DNA of 64,000 bases, taken from assembly GCA_037042915.1 (NCBI GenBank), contig CM073203.1:1860001-1924000 (forward strand). The letters run 5' to 3'. Shown here one piece after another: positions 19,616 through 56,300 of the stretch. This DNA is from Auricularia sp. M13 (lineage: Eukaryota > Basidiomycota > Agaricomycetes > Auriculariales > Auriculariaceae). Positions within the stretch are counted from its first letter, which is position 1; every line of letters begins with the position of its first letter. Made by a program: the position numbers and the translations under genes. Under the pieces are notes generated by a model that did no database searches, was not told the DNA's origin, and saw nothing but the letters and a program-made list of their open reading frames with translations.

Positions 19616-22167
19616 TTAGGCGCCGCGGCCCCGCGTGTTTGGACGTCCACCGCGCTGCTGATATGGAGGGGGGCGGGACTGTCGTCCGGGACGTCCTTGA
19701 GAATGGGCGCTGGCGTGGGCTGGATGCGGTGTGCCTGCTCGCGCGCGTTGCGCAGCTGCGGGAGTGGGTCGTGGCTTCGGGCGACCCCAGCCTGGGATCG
19801 TAAGCGCCTGGCATTTGCCTCGCGGGTGTGACGACGCCTTGCAGATCGAGCACCTGTATACTTTTAGTTTCGGGCTGCGCCTGACTGCGGCGCCGTGGAG
19901 AGGATCAGGGACAGTGAGCTCGAGTACGGCGTCATGAAGTCGCCGCCGTTGTTCTGACGAGATCGTGACCACGTCGCGTGTGCCGTCGTCCTTCGCAACC
20001 TCGTACATTATCGGCCCAGTGTAGACGTTGTATTCGATGACAGGGACCTTGCCTGGTCCGCGAGGAATGATTTCGAGCGGGCGTACCTCCAGGTTCTTGA
20101 GGAAGGACTTGTAAGCCTTCTTGCCTTCGCCTTTGTGCGCTGTCTCGACGGCCTTGAAGACAGCGCGGACCTTGGGCGCAGAGCGGCAGCGAACACGCAG
20201 GCCGATTTCCACACGATTGCACGGCGCCGTCGAATCCGCGAATGTGCCGATGAAGCGCGAGTCGCCATGGTTCTTGCGGAAGACTACGATGCAGTACTTG
20301 CCGACCTGGTAGAACGTGCGGCCGGTCCATGCTGCCGTCGTCGCTTCGCTGATGCTGTAAACGAGGAACAGTCCCGGTTCCGCAGGCGGAGCGCCTTCAG
20401 CGGCCCTGCCTGGTGCAAGAAGGGCGGTGCTGCCAGGCTCGGTCTTGCGCATGGAGTCCTGGAGGTCGATGTTGAGTTGGACTTGGTTCATGTCCGCGAT
20501 ATTCGTATCGCCATCGACGCTGTGAATGCGCACGCCGAAGCCGCCCGGGATGTTCTGCCACGCCGCGAGGATGGCCGGATCGACGCCAGTCCACAGCTCG
20601 CCCGCCATAACACCGTCGATGACTTCCTCGTTGGGGGGAGTTGCGCGCATCTGGATGCGTGTCTGCGCGAACCTTTGGTCGATGGCGCTCGCCGTGGCTC
20701 GGTGTTCGTCTGTGGCGACATATTCGTCCTCAATTGTCGCGTGTGCGAGGTCCTCGTCGTTGTCCGACAAGTCCGCGTCGTTCATCTGGGCTGCGTCACC
20801 CGTGTCGTCCACATACATATCTTCTTCGTCATCCGTAAGCCCATCGGCTTCGCGGCCGCCATTCGGTTGTGGCTGGAGGATGGGAGGAGGCGGGCCGTTC
20901 GGCCAGAGGGGAGGGACGGGAGCAGCAGTCGCGCGATGCCATTCTTCTTCCGTTATCGGCGCACGGACGCTGCGCGGCGGGACTTGCGGTTCGTGCATGG
21001 TCTTCTGCTCGTCAACGGCACTGCCAGCGGCTGCGCGAGGCGCAGGAGATGCGCGGCGGGATGCGGTTCCCGCGCCGCGGTCGAAGCTGGACTGTAGCCA
21101 TGAATCCTCGTCGTCGTCTTGCTTCGCGACGTGCGATCCTGCGGCCTGCGAGTTGATTGCGGAAATGTCCATTGAGGCTGAGCCAAGGTCGTCTTCCTCC
21201 GCCTTCGGCATGACTTGAGTGTACGGACGCCAGTCCTTATCATCCTGAGGAAGTGTTAGAATCGTGCAGGGAGGAGGTATGTTTGCGCCGCACCTCGAGT
21301 AATGGGAGGGCAGGGAGCTCCGTCTGTGCCTGCTGCCAAGGCGGCTGCGGTAATTTGAAGATCTTCGGTTGCGCGGGTGCGAAGCTCTTGTTCACGAGCC
21401 TTGTGCCCAGTACCGGCGGGGGGCGCGAGTACATCGCTAGCGTGGCTGGATTCGGTGCAGGTGGACGGAAAGGTTTGAACTTCTTCTGGTCGCTGAGGAC
21501 GATGGCCTTGCCAGAGCCGGTGCGTAGGCTCAGGCTCTGGGCAGCGTGCGTCTGGCCTCCATCCTCTCGATTGGCTTCGGATGGGGTCTGGCTCGCTCGG
21601 TCGATCTGGGCGCCGCCAGTAGTAGTCATGGCGTCCACTGGGAAGTTGTCGCCTTCACCATGCTGTTCGGCGTGAGTATCCAGGCAGTTAGGTGTATGAG
21701 ATGGTGCTGACATTCTGTTTTCCATCATGCCAGAGCATCTCATCTTCGTCGCGCTCCATGGCCGGCGCGGTCGGGTTGAGGGGCAGCGCGTGGTCCGAGT
21801 CTCGCGAGTCGTTTTCGCCCGAGTCGCCGAACTCCAGCTTGGCAATGGAGGTGTGGGCTCTGACCCAGCGTTCTGCACGGGCCACCCGCTCCGCTGTGGG
21901 CGTACCGTTCGCCGCGAACTCTTCGTGCTTGCGAATTCTTCCGGGGTGGGCGGGCGACTGGTCGGGGTGGGAGCCGGCGTCCTCTTGCTCGCCAAGGGCG
22001 ACGTCCGCTAGTACGCCTAGATTCGAGCGGACGGAGCGGATGCTCAAGGCCGGCGTCTGGGGGCGTGGCTGCTGGGCAGCAGAGGCGAGGCTGACATCGT
22101 CCAAGTCCGTGTCGCCTCCCGTCATCTGCGCGAGTGGGTCGTAACGGTTCGAGGCGCGAGAGTCCAT
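19616..22167 (-). CDS. LINE ORF1: CCHC zinc-knuckle protein, apparently spliced
   Basis: RNA-binding, chaperone-type protein expected to coat the LINE transcript. The ATG at 22167 gives MDSRASNRYDPL. Exon 1 (22167-21712, 152 codons), exon 2 (21662-21294, 123 codons) and exon 3 (21244-19616, 543 codons with stop) join in phase 0 to about 817 residues. Both gaps are 49 nt, begin GT, end CAG and contain CTAAC, the fungal branch site; each would otherwise put a stop or a frame change in the protein. The N-terminal part is acidic and disordered. The middle is folded (GLFLVYSISEATTAAWTGRT, FRKNHGDSRFIGTF). The zinc knuckle is CSICKASSHPRGKC, then IPGWGRPKP, ending in an Arg/Gly/Pro-rich tail. No enzymatic motif is seen. 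Frameshift decay is the alternative to splicing, but two matching 49-nt gaps make that unlikely. Confidence 0.8.
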
Positions 22168-39929: not shown

Positions 39930-41365
39930 GTATTTCGATCAGACTGTCGCTGGAACAGCGGTCTCACTGCACTTGGGAGCGCTATTTCTACCGTCGCATA
40001 GGCTATCCTCAGCGCTTCTCGCGCGTCGCGTGCGAGGCGCACGCCAGGGAATTAGAATGCCTCCTTCAGCCATCCATGCCTTTGAATGAGATGTTCCTTC
40101 TCAATGTCGACTCGGAGCTGATTTTTCGCCCTAAGCCTCGTCTTGTTCGCAGTCCGGCGGCGAAATCAGGGAGAACATCGCGCTCGTCTGATCATCGCCT
40201 GGATTGCTCGGGGAAGATCCCGTGATCATAGACAGTTCTCACGGGTTCTCACGCTACCCCACAAAGTCAATCACGGCTGACCAGGCTCGTGACCACAAGA
40301 TTCACTCGCACTTTCCTTTTCGGGATACACAGGCTCATCGATATGAACCGATCCCTCAGACAGTTCAGGGGCGTGCCAGCGCTGCATCGCTGGCACTCTT
40401 CGACGTAGATCTTGGGGTGCTTGGTTGTTGATGACTGTCTCACGCTAGTGCCACCAGTTTCTTGGGGAGCTGGTCAGCAGATATGGTGTACAACTCCTGG
40501 ATGCAGTAATGCCGGCCACACGATCCGAACTGTGAGCACTCATGTTCTGTCTTGGTGACGCAGCTTCCGTTCCTGGGATGAAGCAGGAACGGTTGGAAAT
40601 GCGTTCGAGTGGATGTCACACTTCGGACTACAGTGCCGCTCATGACTGCATCTGAGGTCTGCCACTTTCGTCATGGTAGACCTCTTAAGTACTCCCAGTC
40701 AAAGCGAACGTTCGACTGGGCCCGAAGCTTCTAATGCACCGTCTCAGCATGTACATTACTGCCAATGACAGTCAAAAATCGCTAAATTCGATGTTCGTTG
40801 TGGTCTGACAGCTCTCACACTCCTGACATGCTGCTATGCAAGCCTGTTCTTGACAGCTGCGCGGAGATTGTAGTTCATTACGGGCACACTGTCTCCATTG
40901 ATGAACGGCGCTTGACACGGCAGGAGAGCGCGCTCGGGTCACTCTCCGCGGCAGATCACCTCAGGTGAGCTCGAAGGTCAAGGATGAATAAATGCCCCTC
41001 TGGATCGTACCACAGGCGTCCGGCCCCCCGAGTCTCGGGCTGCACTTACGAAAAACACCAAACTCAGCACGTCTGAAGGATCTGGCGCGGACGCCCGCAT
41101 TTGGAACGCGGAACTGCGGGGGCGACGGTCCCGCACTCCGGCGCCGCCTCAGGATTGAGGTCCGCGGCGAACAGAAACTGGTGTTTGGTTCAGACAAAAT
41201 AGGGTTTGCTACAGTGCGGAACGCCGTCATTCAGTCAGAAGCAAAGTTCGTGTAAGGTCGGAGTGATGACCACAGTGGCAGGCGGAACAAGATCAGCTGG
41301 GTTCCACAGTTCCTGCACAGTTCTCATCGGTCTAACAAGAAGACGTGAAACTGCGCGCGGGGATG
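39930..41365 (+). repeat. Dispersed repeat, copy A (uninterrupted)
   Basis: This stretch matches, in inverted orientation, the repeat at about 50832-53000. Matching blocks include 40141-40320 (CCTGGATTGCTCG, CACGCTACCCCACAAAGTC), 40391-40470 (GATCTTGGGGTGCTTGG), 40620-40670, 40735-40800 (CCAATGAC, GTCAAAAATCG), 40961-41130 (CCTCAGGTGAGCTCGAAGGT) and 41280-41350. Identity by eye is roughly 80-95% in blocks, with a diverged middle. At about 40761-40776 it carries the empty target site of the fold-back element found in the other copy. The family and outer ends are unknown, and no intact reading frame remains. Confidence 0.75.
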
Positions 41366-50831: not shown

Positions 50832-51410
50832 TGCGCAGTTTCACAGCTGCGATGTTTCTTTGTTCGAAAGATGCAGGAACTGTGGAAAGCACTCCGCTGA
50901 TCTTGTTCGGCGTTCGGTGTTCCGCCCGCAGTGCCACTGCGTCACGGTCTGCTTCGGACGAAATGAAAGTTCATGCTAAGCACCACACCCAACCCCTGGA
51001 GAGTATTGTACCCCATTTCGCACACCCTACAAACTCGGGAGGCGGCGCCGGCGCAGTCCAACCTGCGAGAGCGCCCGCACGGCGCAGTCCCGCGTTCCAA
51101 ATTCGGGCGTCCGCGCCAGATCCTTCAGGCGTGCTGAGTTTGGTGCTTTTCGTCAATACTGCCCGAGACGGGCATGGATGCCTATGGTACGATTCAGCGC
51201 GGGCGCGGGATTATTCATCCTGGACCTTCGAGCTCACCTGAGGAGGTCGGCCGCGGAGAGCCGCCGGAGCGCCGTGCATCGATGAGGAGTGTGCCCGAAA
51301 TGAACGACTGTCTCCGCGCAGCTCTCGAGAACAAGCACGCATGGCAGCACGTCTAGAGTGTCTGAGAGTTGTCAGGCCAGAACGGAGATCACATTTGGCG
51401 ATTTTTGACG

Positions 51411-51416
51411 GTCATT
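51411..51416. repeat. Target-site duplication of fold-back element, left
   Basis: GTCATT immediately precedes the left terminus TATCCCCCTTATTCTGC. The same six bases follow the right terminus at 52066-52071. Copy A of the host repeat has only one. Confidence 0.85.
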
Positions 51417-52065
51417 TATCCCCCTTATTCTGCACAAAAATAAAAACCTCCAAATGAGACCTTCCTCCACCCTGAGAAACTATTCCATCCTAGAATTGAT
51501 GTCCATCCCAAAATAAGCGCCCACCCTCCAAATGGGGATGTGTCCATCCAAACTGGGCGATGTCCATCCCAAATAAGCGCCCACCTCCCAAAGGGACCCA
51601 CCTCCAAATTTCGCGGGGACATCTGTCTCAGCCACCCATTCCATCCTAGATATTATATAAGCGGCCCCTCGGCGGCAGAGCTGAGTTTCTCAGACCGAAC
51701 TCGGATGCACACTCCGGATGCTTCTGAGCTGCTTCTCAGACTTCGGCCGAATACTCGGAAGCATCCGGAGTGTGCATCCGAGTTCGGTCCGAGAAACTCA
51801 GCTCTGCCGCCGAGGGGCCGCTTATATAATATCTAGGATGGAATGGGTGGCTGAGACAGATGTCCCCACGAAATTTGGAGGTGGGTCCCTTTGGGAGGTG
51901 GGCGCTTATTTGGGATGGACATCGCCCAGTTTGGATGGACACATCCCCATTTGGAGGGTGGGCGCTTATTTTGGGATGGACATCAATTCTAGGATGGAAT
52001 AGTTTCTCAGGGTGGAGGAAGGTCTCATTTGGAGGTTTTTATTTTTGTGCAGAATAAGGAGGATA
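51417..52065. mobile_element. 649-bp near-perfect fold-back (palindromic) element
   Basis: Left arm 51417-51724 and right arm 51758-52065 (308 bp each) are reverse complements with only about three or four mismatches, around a 33-nt loop at 51725-51757. The termini are TATCCYCCTTATTCTGC. The flanks are GTCATT on both sides, and the homologous repeat at 39930-41365 has the uninterrupted site, so this is a precise insertion. Each arm contains two copies of a GATGTCCATCCCAA-type unit followed by TAAGCGCCCACC, and a TATATAAGCGGCCCC stretch that may act as a core promoter. There is no transposase; the mirrored frames are simply the two arms. It is best described as a fold-back type non-autonomous DNA element (MITE-like). 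The superfamily is unassigned, since a 6-bp duplication is not diagnostic. Confidence 0.9.
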
Positions 52066-52071
52066 GTCATT
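52066..52071. repeat. Target-site duplication of fold-back element, right
   Basis: GTCATT immediately follows the right terminus (AATAAGGAGGATA). It matches 51411-51416. Confidence 0.85.
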
Positions 52072-53346
52072 GGCAGTAATGTACATCCAGAGACGGTGCA
52101 CTAGAAGGCATTGGGCGCGATCGAGCGTCAGCCGTGGCTGAGAGTACAATGTCTTCCATGACGAACGTGGCAGACCTCAGAAGCAGTTAGGATCGACAAT
52201 GTAGTCCGAAGTATGACAGCCTTTCCAAGTCACTGACCGTTTCTCCCAAACAAATATGACTGCGCACAACCCGGTCTGTGATCGACGGGATCATGGGACA
52301 ACATCCAGAACCTCATTCACAGTTGTGCAGTGAACATGCTAGTGCACCGACTTTGTCACTGTGAGCCTGCTGACCAGCTGCTGACAGCTCTCCAAGAAAC
52401 TGGTGGCACTGGCGTGAGACAGTCATCAATAGCCAAGCACCCCAAGATCTGCGTCGAAGAGTGCCAGCGGTACAGCGATACAGCGCTGGCAAACCCCTGA
52501 ACCTCTCTGAGCGATCCGTACACATCGATGAGCCTGTGAATCTCGAAAACGAAAATGCGAGTGAATCTGCAGGTCACGAGCCTGGTCAGCCGTGATAGAC
52601 TTTGTGGGGTAGCGTGAGAATCCGTGAGAACTTGTTTGATCACGGGATCTTTGCGAGCAATCCAGGCCACGATCAGACGAGCGCGACGTTCGTCGTATTC
52701 CGCCGCGAAGCTGAGAACAAGACCCGGCCCTGTGCTTGAATGATTGAGTAAGAGTTACTGGCTCGGTCCTGAGACGGCATTCAGCACAATGACTGTACGC
52801 GGCTGCCAAGAGGGCTGAAAACGCCATTCTCAGGCACGAGCCTCGCATGTTGCACGCATCGCGAGAAGCGTCAATAGCGCTCAGAATCTGTGTGCTTCCA
52901 GCAACAGTTCTGCCGAAGGATGTCGTTGCATGCTCCAGCACAATCCCACGTTCAATGGACGGACGGCGGGAGCGTGCGGCGCTCAGCCTCGATTGCCGCT
53001 CGGGTCTGTTGCAGGCTGCAGCGTTCTCCCGAAATCGGACATATTCGGACGAGCGCGCGGCATTCAGCAGAGGCCCTGGTCACGTCGCTCAGAGCGGCGC
53101 CCAGCTGCTACGCGAGGTGCAGGACGGTGATGATGTTGCCGACAGCATTCAAGACAGTAGCGATGAATGACAGGGGATGTGAGCTAAGTAGCTGGGCTAC
53201 AGTATCATGAAAATTGAGGGGGCCGCGGCTTGAGCGCATGAGCAAGACGATGTCGCTCATGTTGTAGCACATCCACATGACGACCGGCCCACTCTGCAGT
53301 GCGGAGCGTCGCCTAATATGTACGCGGATGACTGCTCTATGTGTCC

Positions 53347-56300
53347 CTAATGCCACACATCATTTCCATAGGTCAAGTTCGAAAACTCAGACCTCTTCAA
53401 GCAACGGCATGGGAGACCGATATCGCACTGCATGTGTGTCAGAGCTCGCCAAACAGGCGTCCAGTACACACCAATTTGCATTATACGGTCCCTCCACGGC
53501 CTATGTCTAGGCATCTCTGCTGGAAGTGTAACTGCACGGATATTCATGCAGTCACAATTCTCCGTGCATTGCGGGTTCTCCCCGCCAGGCATGAGTTCTC
53601 GAATAGCGTCAAGGAAATGAACTGCATTCGTCCGAAGTAGGCTGCCATCATCACCAATCATCGCAAGTGCGGCACACACTCTCGCCCACAAAGGCGGGGA
53701 GAGTTCCGCGCAGTGCAATGCCAGCGGCATTATATTTCCCCTCCAGACCATATCCGACGGAGGGTTGTCCGTCCCAAGAGTGCTGTCGATCAGTGTCCGG
53801 AATCGATGCACGACGAAAGTGCCTGAGAAAAAGGCGTCCACCAATTTTTCATCGAGATTTCGGTTCCGCTGTCGATTACACAAGATCGAAGAAAGTATGC
53901 AAGCGAGGTGATTGACGTGGTTTTGGGGATGCATCCAGCGCTCTTCGGTCCACGTGGCGACCGCGTTCTCGCCGAGTATGAATGCATGTAATATAGCATC
54001 GCTTGTGCCTGCGGCAAGAGGCCCCGGTCTCCTGCCAGAGGGGCTGATGATATTCAGAACGAGCCCCCAAGCTTCGGAAGGATTGAAGCCTGGCCATGGC
54101 TCAACGGTCCAAAATATTCTGAGAAGTCTGGCAGCACACAAACAATACTCCCTGCATTGCTCTGTGTCGTCGATGTTGGGGAAATCCACACGATCCAGAA
54201 GATGAATGTAACTGGCAAACTCCTCGCGACCGACGAACTGTTCGAACTCTGTCGACAGGACAAACACACCAATTCCGCGCAGTGTCGACCATTGTAGCAT
54301 AGTACCCGAAAACTGCGAAGGATGAACGATGGATTCGCCCAGCAGGCGCAGGTGGTGCACAAAAATGCGGACTGTTTCGCTCTCCAAGCCATATCGCAAT
54401 GAGTTGGAGGCCAGGGCATACAGAACGTTCAAGGAGGCAAAGTCATCATTGCTGTCGAATTTATCTAGCGGATCAATCCATTCCGCGACGAGTTGCGCGA
54501 CGAATCGCATCGCAGTAGAACGTTCATAGCCGTCGGCAAGGTGGAAATGACCGGCACAGAGAACAAGAAGAGCGCAAGAGATCATGTCGGGATCCATCCT
54601 ATCGCATCCCGTAGAAGGTAGTCTGGCTAGGAAGAGAAAGCACAGTAAGCGATGCGGCGTGACGTTCGAGTGCGCAGTTCGAAAAAAGGGGAAGTCTTGG
54701 CTGTATGAGACGGATCGAGGTGAATTGCTGATTTGCGCAGCGAGCTGTTGCTTCAGAAATGTGCTGAGACCGATAATATCGAAGTAGTTTGGAGAAAAGT
54801 CACACGCGGCAGCCACCAGTAGCATGCCGTCCCCACCAAGCACGGTGCTAAGGTCTGGTGCTTGTGGGCATCGAAGTGGGAGCCAGGCGAAGGCGTGCAC
54901 GAGTTGCGCTGCACGGATTAACTTCGCATAGGTCATGATAGCAAAGCCGTTTGATGCGAGGTCTGGTGGCGGAGTGACGATGGGTGAGATAATGGCGCAG
55001 ATGACATTCCTCACCGCACCCGAAGATGCAACGGCGAAGGTGCGGCCAGCAGTTACTGCTCCTAGAGCTTCAACACCGGCACTGACGATATCTTTGTCAG
55101 CCGTCGATAGGAGTGAACGGAGCACCCATCCATCGAGATCCAGTCTTTGTGAATTTATAGCATCCCCCTCTCGCTTCAGCGGGTCGTTATTTTGATTGAG
55201 AAACAACAATGCATCACGAACACGGAAATAGACATATTTCCAGCCTGAGCCACTATGCCCGCGCACAAGGTGTAGACACTTGATCAGGTAAGCGGTGATT
55301 CCGAGACCGAAGACCACCGCAGAACGAGCTTGCGAAACCAATGGCGTGTAAGATGGGCACTCCAGGCGGCAGGCGGGAAAGACGAGAGAAAGCACATAGA
55401 ACAGCAAGACACCTGATATCATAGCGAGCAGCGAGTTGGCGATAGCTTTGTCCAGCGGGCGCAGAAACAGAACCAACCCGGCAAAGAAAAGGAACAGCGA
55501 AACGTGCAGGAGCAGCGGCAAGAGCGAGATGAGCGCCGGGACGCCCCATGCATTTAGACCACGCAGATATAGCTGATGGCGGCGCGCCCAGTGCTGGGGT
55601 GACGGTGCAGAGGTGGCGACGTGCCTCTCGTATTCGTCAAGCCATTGCTTGATCAGAATGCTGAGCAGTGCGACGGCTAGGCTGACGACCAGGCTCGAGA
55701 ACCACATCCCATTCGTCCAACGCTCTGTGGTTGAAGGCAGAACGAAGCTATCGGGAGGCCCAAGCCTGGTGAGCAGCGGCAGCCCGATGAAGCCGGCCTC
55801 GGTCTGATTGGTCGTCACAGCTGCGTGGAGAACGTTGGCGATGTATCTCGTATAGTCAGGCTGGAGGGATTTATAGGACTCGACGATGAAAGCAGTTGAA
55901 ACCGCAGAGAATAAGCCAGCCTGTATAGTCGCAACGCAGTTAGGATCGACAGCTGTTGCAGTGACAGTGGGCGACAGACTCACGAAGATGAGCAATACGT
56001 CCAGGGTCTTATTCCACGTGTCAAGCATCATACTGTCATCCTTTGTACTCTTGTCGCGATAGATCTTCCAGACGCGGGCATTCGGCTCGGCTTCTTCGCC
56101 CCACGCGTCCGGAGGATAGTCTTCGTTGAACTTTGTCTTTGGACGGCCTTAAATATGTGTCAGAACAGGGTCGGTATAATAATCTCAAATTTTGAATACA
56201 TACCCTCATACTGCCACCCAGGATCCAAATATTTGGGCTTGAAACCAAGGCACTGTTGAACGATGTCCGGCGAGTCTGGTCGTGCCAGGCCTTCTGTGGG

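Follow-up and report, generated by a model that had tools for sequence, protein, structure and literature searches.

Introns conserved in ORF1 of an Auricularia LINE clade suggest separate spliced and unspliced states of the element's RNA

The genome of Auricularia sp. M13 (52.1 Mb in 14 contigs) carries a full-length long interspersed nuclear element (LINE) in a 64-kb stretch of contig C11, hereafter the window, and the first open reading frame (ORF1) of this LINE is broken by two short gaps that, compared with its relatives, bear the marks of spliceosomal introns inherited within the LINE lineage. Passage through RNA is expected to erase introns, and a LINE clade that retains them until synonymous sites are nearly saturated breaks that rule. 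We consider it probable that the introns are inherited parts of ORF1 and that the element's RNA exists in two states, of which the spliced one would be the ORF1 mRNA and the unspliced one would be both the template for retrotransposition and the mRNA for ORF2. Splicing itself, the sorting of the two RNAs and an internal start of ORF2 would be the predicted steps of this scheme, while the conservation of the introns and their presence in the template are read from the copies themselves.

The two gaps are each 49 nt long, in phase 0, and lie between exons of 152, 123 and 543 codons exactly where the initial annotation of this DNA had placed them. Its claim that the gaps remove stops also holds, as each exon is open and the unspliced ORF1 frame runs into a stop inside gap 1. 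The same annotation had assigned both gaps a CTAAC; in gap 1 it is present but lies 26 nt from the 3′ end, and the position of a CTCAC, at 11 nt, is more suitable. The LINE as a whole extends beyond the interval that had been annotated (19616–22167), and its limits and parts are collected in Table 1.

A protein search of the genome with ORF2 gave 214 candidates, of which 26 were scored, such that further copies are possible. ORF2 is free of stops at 24 of these 26 places, and the other two (C8 among them) have one TAG each. In a quick ORF2 tree, the nearest clade of the window copy comprises seven others whose ORF2 proteins are 53–70% identical. One of these, C11b, has no ORF1 within the stretch examined and no duplication was found there, so it stands outside the counts; the ORF1 comparison covers the window copy, C1_2, C8, C5a, C4, C5b and C1_3. 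Intron 1 occupies one common site in phase 0 in all seven, with lengths in that order of 49, 47, 47, 49, 50, 57 and 51 nt. Intron 2 has a common site in phase 0 in four of the seven (window copy, 49 nt; C1_2, 50 nt; C8, 46 nt; C5a, 47 nt), and these carriers have their splice signals in common while the intron bodies have diverged. C5b branches first in the tree (support 90), then C1_3 with C4, and then C5a and the group of the window copy, so that intron 2 would most simply be a single later gain on the branch of its carriers, with two losses as a possible alternative. The initial annotation had asked whether related copies conserve both introns and their phase, and had held that relatives without the 49 nt would make the gaps simple insertions. 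Intron 1 stands up fully in this respect, as its site and phase are kept in all seven copies; intron 2 is kept in only four, and three of the seven families lack it.

Introns also occur in ORF1 outside the clade, where seven families were considered (the F17 group counting as one) and C1_42, C4_31 and the F17 group have an intron. The distant families C1_42 (75 nt) and C4_31 (48 nt) have a common phase-2 intron near the end of ORF1, and the F17 group has a phase-1 intron just after the ATG, within the first few codons, in all five copies examined (F17, L054, L055, L056 and L057), the L057 boundary having been chosen by phase from several possibilities. L054, L055 and L056, which sit 3–4 kb upstream of the ORF2 copies L021, L024 and L025, match one another at 98.6–99.2% identity across roughly 1 kb of the 5′ part of ORF1, and all of them retain the intron. 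The ORF1 of C1_6 probably carries one intron as well and was left out of the counts, which also do not include C4_36, C1_43 and C2_28.

Splice signals were scored in 16 introns, 11 from the clade and five from elsewhere, with the near-identical L055 and L056 uncounted. All 16 start with GTNNG and end with AG, and 15 have a CTNAY motif with its A 10–18 nt from the 3′ end (19 nt in L057). A point that tells against these counts is that boundaries were first picked by eye from frame breaks and GT/AG; the position-5 G and the distance of the branch motif were counted only later. To gauge chance, segments of 46, 49 or 52 nt were placed across the 5′ regions of these LINEs, true introns included; of about 85,600 placements per length, 1.4–1.6 per 10,000 have GT...AG and a branch motif. 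Intron interiors are only 34–71% identical across 17–40 sites per pair and vary in length, and the maximum of 71%, between intron 1 of the window copy and of C5a, comes from only 17 aligned sites. Matches to host actin-family exons leave gaps of, for example, 43, 52 and 58 nt, with others shorter and longer, which suggests that host introns are of similar size to those of the LINEs, a rough comparison given that match ends are not splice sites. The exons behave differently from the intron interiors: across exons 1–3, the ratio of nonsynonymous to synonymous substitution rates (dN/dS) is 0.13, 0.27 and 0.13 between the window copy and C1_2, and 0.23, 0.16 and 0.13 between the window copy and C8, with dS above 1 in both pairs. 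By these values, the ORF1 exons are under purifying selection and their synonymous sites are near saturation.

A GT...AG frame with a branch motif and host-like length, and a conserved site and phase around a diverged interior, are what would be expected of spliceosomal introns. That the gaps are instead mere insertions of 49 nt, or frameshifts, in a copy undergoing decay is scarcely credible. Both happen to be 49 nt in the window copy, but the same sites and phase recur, at lengths of 46–57 nt and with conserved signals, in families as diverged as those of the clade, and the surrounding exons are under purifying selection. We excluded this explanation on the basis of the conserved sites, phase and splice signals.

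As the initial annotation had stated, the element has an intact duplication and tail: a 20-bp direct repeat, ACAACTGTATCAGGGCGGGG, is present at both element ends, and the 3′ copy adjoins a run of 26 A residues. Exact flanking repeats measure 20 bp in the window copy, 14 in C1_2, 17 in C8, 14 in C5a, 15 in C5b, 16 in C1_3 and 16 in C4, although the first A may be tail-derived in some copies, and in the same order the A-tails are 26, 34, 32, 34, 32, 41 and 23 residues long and follow a similar 3′ end. Duplications were scored for this clade only, the 5′ ends of other families lying mostly beyond the stretches examined. A private duplication and an A-tail in seven of seven copies imply that each insertion was copied from polyadenylated sense RNA that still held introns; on this evidence the template would have held intron 1 in all seven insertions and intron 2 in all four where it exists. 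The earlier suggestion that genomic RNA escapes splicing thus gains support from seven independent intron-bearing insertions, and the high divergence among the carriers suggests that the introns have survived many cycles. We give next to no credence to the idea that the copies spread as DNA through segmental duplication, which would make retention uninformative about RNA: nothing observed speaks for it, the private duplications of 14–20 bp with A-tails speak against it, and L021, L024 and L025 differ in their 3′ flanks after the A-tail (only the 3′ side was examined). DNA-level duplication was excluded on these grounds. An antisense template, in the style of Penelope, fits poorly with the sense A-tails.

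The full ORF1 protein requires splicing in five of the seven clade members. This need, along with splice signals that are kept while interiors drift, suggests that splicing is under selection. In the two-state scheme, spliced RNA would serve as mRNA of the Gag-like ORF1 protein, and unspliced RNA would give a truncated ORF1 product in those five members, yet serve as template. Translation of ORF2 would begin internally on the unspliced RNA, at a structured RNA. L1 ORF2 protein is well known to prefer its own mRNA, and an ORF2 protein with the same preference would choose the unspliced RNA as template, such that the introns would persist.

Neutral persistence would account for the same introns differently: they would be real but poorly spliced, most RNA would be unspliced and templates would be drawn from it at random, with no sorting. 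We find this tenable, though we lean against it. Some 5′ splice sites, including GTCAGC and GTGCGG of the window copy, look weak beside what is usually given as the consensus, and three copies have introns that are open and in frame; yet 15 of 16 introns keep their splice sites and branch motif despite drifting interiors, five clade members cannot make the full ORF1 protein from unspliced RNA, and intron 1 is retained in all seven.

Several observations weigh against the two-state scheme with its inherited introns. Three copies have an open intron whose length is a multiple of three (C5b, 57 nt; C1_3, 51 nt; L057, 51 nt); splicing is unneeded in them, and these segments are possibly exonic. 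C4, C5b and C1_3 lack intron 2. Exon constraint is weaker in pairs with C5a (dN/dS 0.21–0.62), over which distance exons 1 and 2 appear less constrained. Some copies are also damaged: C5b has two in-frame stops in ORF1, C4_31 has a stop in ORF1 shortly 5′ of its intron, the ORF2 of C8 has its single TAG, and C4 has a frame break 5′ of the APE endonuclease domain.

Introns could also persist through a need for them in expression, by way of export or intron-mediated enhancement, with copies from spliced RNA arising and dying out. At least one intron is present in every ORF1 examined in the clade (seven of seven) and in the F17 group (five of five), and in human L1 a copy that arises from spliced RNA is in general a dead end (PMC5860796). 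Against such a need, intron bodies are not conserved, and no clean copy lacking intron 1, dead or alive, is found among the selected copies examined; we regard this explanation as unlikely.

If ORF2 is translated from unspliced RNA, the candidate for its internal start is the structured RNA between ORF1 and ORF2, which ends in a pseudoknot. It is found in 25 of the 26 copies, with 161–170 nt separating two fixed motifs, and C11b is the only miss. Stems and loops are strongly conserved when the stretch 5′ of ORF2 is aligned, and the RNA extends into the first part of the ORF2 frame. For 15 aligned copies out of the 25, two of them from the F17 group, RNAalifold gave 49 pairs, and compensatory changes are present in 37. 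The final structure of 57 pairs, from which two RNAalifold pairs were removed and to which two pseudoknots were added by eye, is 93.2% paired, and 41 of its 57 pairs have changed on both sides (150 cells in total). In four of five measures no shuffle out of 500 came up to what was observed, and in the fifth (further pair types, 79) 32 of 500 did. Slid controls were 27.5–39.5% paired versus the observed 93.2%, a comparison biased by the structure having been derived from the scored sequences, though hardly to the extent observed. The terminal pseudoknot pairs a hairpin loop, GCGCTG, with CAGCGC at the edge of ORF2 in 15 of 15 sequences, and two of its six pairs covary.

The core pattern of this RNA has 21 matches in the genome versus none for a reversed control, and a three-motif check with a looser middle motif likewise gave 21 matches over the 25 LINE copies. 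A structured RNA or ribozyme of a described kind was excluded, as Rfam returned no match at E values up to 1 for the window element and five related loci. A loose pattern matched viral contigs 42 times, and none of the 42 had either flanking motif, so these were put down to chance.

No introns were seen in ORF2, which is one open frame from the APE domain onward in 24 of the 26 places. Of 25 copies, 24 keep a constant register from pseudoknot to ORF2; only C4 departs from it, being open in the pseudoknot register and then meeting its frame break before the APE domain. As 11 of the 25 are close F17-group members besides F17 itself, counting by family gives 13 independent cases of 14. No ATG occurs 3′ of the pseudoknot for 200 codons in the window copy, 194 in C1_2, 162 in C1_43 and 97 in C2_28. 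Between the pseudoknot and the APE domain, the window copy, C1_2 and C8 have no stop and a ratio of nonsynonymous to synonymous differences (pN/pS) of 0.61–0.72 in the ORF2 frame, versus 3–11 stops and 0.82–1.12 in the other frames, in an alignment for which the ORF2 frame served as guide. In these three copies, the stretch is thus likely to be coding. From its position, register and structure, we think it likely that the structured RNA is an internal-initiation element for ORF2.

Other features of the region count against a general non-AUG start. An in-frame ATG lies 3–30 codons 5′ of the CAA at the pseudoknot in C5b, C1_6, C1_42 and C4_36, and within 7–53 codons 3′ in C5a, C8, C1_3, C4_31, C4 and the F17 group, such that an AUG start is possible in those ten families. 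The first 53 codons of the F17 group, with a pN/pS of 0.77, show no clear coding constraint, and synonymous change there is 0.029 versus 0.152 further on, which together suggest constraint on RNA rather than on coding. A strict likeness to the intergenic IRES (internal ribosome entry site) of dicistroviruses is weakened by the pseudoknot itself: if it has 6 bp, the triplet beside it falls one base out of the ORF2 frame, and only with 5 bp would CAA be the first codon.

Rather than an IRES, the structured RNA could be a site to which ORF2 protein binds or an element that serves re-initiation, a serious contender that we place only a little short of an even chance. R2 elements are known to use a 5′ protein-binding RNA, the structured RNA here overlaps the ORF2 frame start, and ten of 14 families have an in-frame ATG before, or at most 53 codons after, the pseudoknot. 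The constant register argues the other way, its one exception having a frame break further on, as do the 97–200 codons without ATG in the window copy, C1_2, C1_43 and C2_28. A bolder form of the two-state scheme, which we put forward only tentatively and hold to be rather doubtful, is a retrovirus-like division of RNA in which ORF2 of such copies would start without AUG at a tRNA-mimicking, IRES-like pseudoknot and the introns would be long-lived and selected.

Table 1. Parts of the LINE in the window, with positions counted from the first base of the 64-kb stretch
Feature	Position	Strand	Remarks
Full-length LINE, ~11.46 kb	~24782–13327	minus	Limits from duplication and A-tail
5′ target-site duplication, 20 bp	24802–24783	minus	Exact 20-mer match to sequence 3′ of A-tail
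ORF0, open frame with C2HC zinc-finger motif	22987–22574	minus	Finger at ~22771–22697
ORF1, three exons	22167–19616	minus	ATG at 22167
ORF1 exon 1, 152 codons	22167–21712	minus	Open
Intron 1, 49 nt, phase 0, GT...CAG (putative)	21711–21663	minus	CTCAC 11 nt from 3′ end; in-frame stop
ORF1 exon 2, 123 codons	21662–21294	minus	Open
Intron 2, 49 nt, phase 0, GT...CAG (putative)	21293–21245	minus	TCTAAC 12 nt from 3′ end
ORF1 exon 3, 543 codons including stop, Gag-like	21244–19616	minus	Open
CX2CX4HX4C zinc knuckle, single, in ORF1 exon 3	19852–19811	minus	Pattern in 13/15 copies
Structured RNA, ~240 nt, between ORF1 and ORF2, pseudoknot at end	19135–18897	minus	In 25/26 copies
ORF2 open frame, stop-free, 1808 codons	18960–13534	minus	APE and reverse transcriptase
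CAA codon at pseudoknot, candidate non-AUG ORF2 start	18897–18895	minus	In register with ORF2 frame; inferred
APE endonuclease domain of ORF2	~18336–17710	minus	Pfam PF03372, E 4.7e-10
Reverse transcriptase domain of ORF2	~16710–16057	minus	Pfam PF00078, E 4e-37
A26 tail	13351–13326	minus	Adjoins 3′ duplication copy
3′ target-site duplication, 20 bp	13326–13307	minus	First A possibly tail-derived (overlap)

The top match of ORF2 in PDB is the LINE-1 ORF2 protein (E 5.8e-52), Pfam reported no RNase H domain in ORF2, and a search of the window for direct repeats of at least 40 nt found none at the LINE ends, that is, no long terminal repeat (LTR). By its domains, tail and duplication, the window element is an APE-type non-LTR retrotransposon. 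Neither ORF0 nor ORF1 gave a match in a Pfam search. The ORF0 frame of the window copy is without an ATG, and it may start elsewhere or have a further exon; 12 of 14 other copies give tblastn matches to it, of which some are weak, and the finger pattern C-x3-C...H...C in 11 of 15 copies.

Among the related loci, C11b (also L012, C11:934335–939317) has a stop-free ORF2 and an A17 tail, with no ORF1, structured RNA or duplication in the stretch examined. The 12 copies L017–L028 have ORF2 DNA 92–99% identical to L018 in nearly all windows compared. In most pairs their similarity breaks off abruptly some 650 nt 5′ of where the ORF2 match starts, the spacers are unrelated, and part of ORF1 is only 68–84% alike to F17, a mosaic that suggests exchange of 5′ modules. 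Elsewhere in the window, inverted arms at 40234–41118 and 51083–52632 are 83–93% complementary and about 10–12 kb apart, and one of them contains a palindrome (51417–52065; 312 nt, 99% complementary); they are perhaps those of a large DNA transposon. An 894-codon frame with a DUF6535 domain lies at 56031–53347 on the minus strand.

In the literature, of which our coverage was partial, with many subscription papers outside it, no description of introns that must be spliced for a LINE ORF1 protein is among the titles, abstracts and passages listed. The main text of two papers on Laccaria and Marasmius transposons (PMC3411680, PMC9674265) has the whole word "intron" zero times, the plural being uncounted, and the available parts of PMC2881922, PMC5718144 and PMC7943196 hold nothing further on the subject. 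The persistence of introns in this clade makes two questions testable, namely which RNA a LINE reverse-transcribes and how template and mRNA stay apart, and it means that introns are no proof against retrotransposition when gene copies are classified.

Gag-like ORF1 proteins with a zinc knuckle are typical of fungal APE-type clades, of which Tad, Deceiver and Inkcap were reportedly described by Novikova et al. in 2009. Compared by features rather than by reverse transcriptase grouping, the window LINE resembles these clades in having APE and reverse transcriptase domains in ORF2, a poly(A) tail and a target duplication. It differs from them, as far as the available descriptions go, in its ORF1 introns, zinc-finger ORF0 and structured RNA before ORF2.

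Arkhipova et al. are said to have reported in 2003 that Penelope-like elements have introns, and the window LINE is like these elements in being a retroelement that retains spliceosomal introns through transposition. In the part of one account available, Penelope is set apart from "all other retrotransposon types" by dispersing intron-containing genes, and an antisense template is favoured while an unspliced sense template is not excluded (PMC3846280). The window element was rejected as Penelope-like: instead of a telomerase-like reverse transcriptase, GIY-YIG and pseudo-LTRs (pLTRs), it has APE and an L1-like reverse transcriptase. Unlike Penelope-like elements it also has a sense poly(A) tail, and the sense A-tails across its clade point to an unspliced sense template.

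Splicing of human L1 RNA within the 5′ untranslated region and ORF1 gives rise to spliced integrated elements (SpIREs), which encode nonfunctional ORF1 protein and are generally dead-end copies, according to the part of the paper available (PMC5860796). The window LINE is like them in that its RNA has splice sites and splicing would compete with retrotransposition; unlike in human L1, splicing appears to be required for ORF1 in five of seven clade members.

The intergenic IRES of dicistroviruses is a compact, covarying RNA with a pseudoknot beside a non-AUG first codon, which is CAA in one virus. The RNA before ORF2 is similar in lying between two ORFs, in covarying and in having a terminal pseudoknot by a CAA, and a fold that covaries and places its pseudoknot right beside the following ORF is the arrangement expected of a putative intergenic IRES. 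It differs in matching no described family of such elements in Rfam (E up to 1) and in a 6-bp pseudoknot that puts the triplet one base out. An RNA of this kind could explain, in concrete terms, how a LINE translates a downstream ORF that has no AUG.

A parallel in the use of RNA would be with retroviruses, in which unspliced RNA is the genome and spliced RNA is the mRNA of some proteins. Unlike retroviruses, the window LINE has no LTRs and inserts with a poly(A) tail, and it is its Gag-like protein that would need the spliced RNA.

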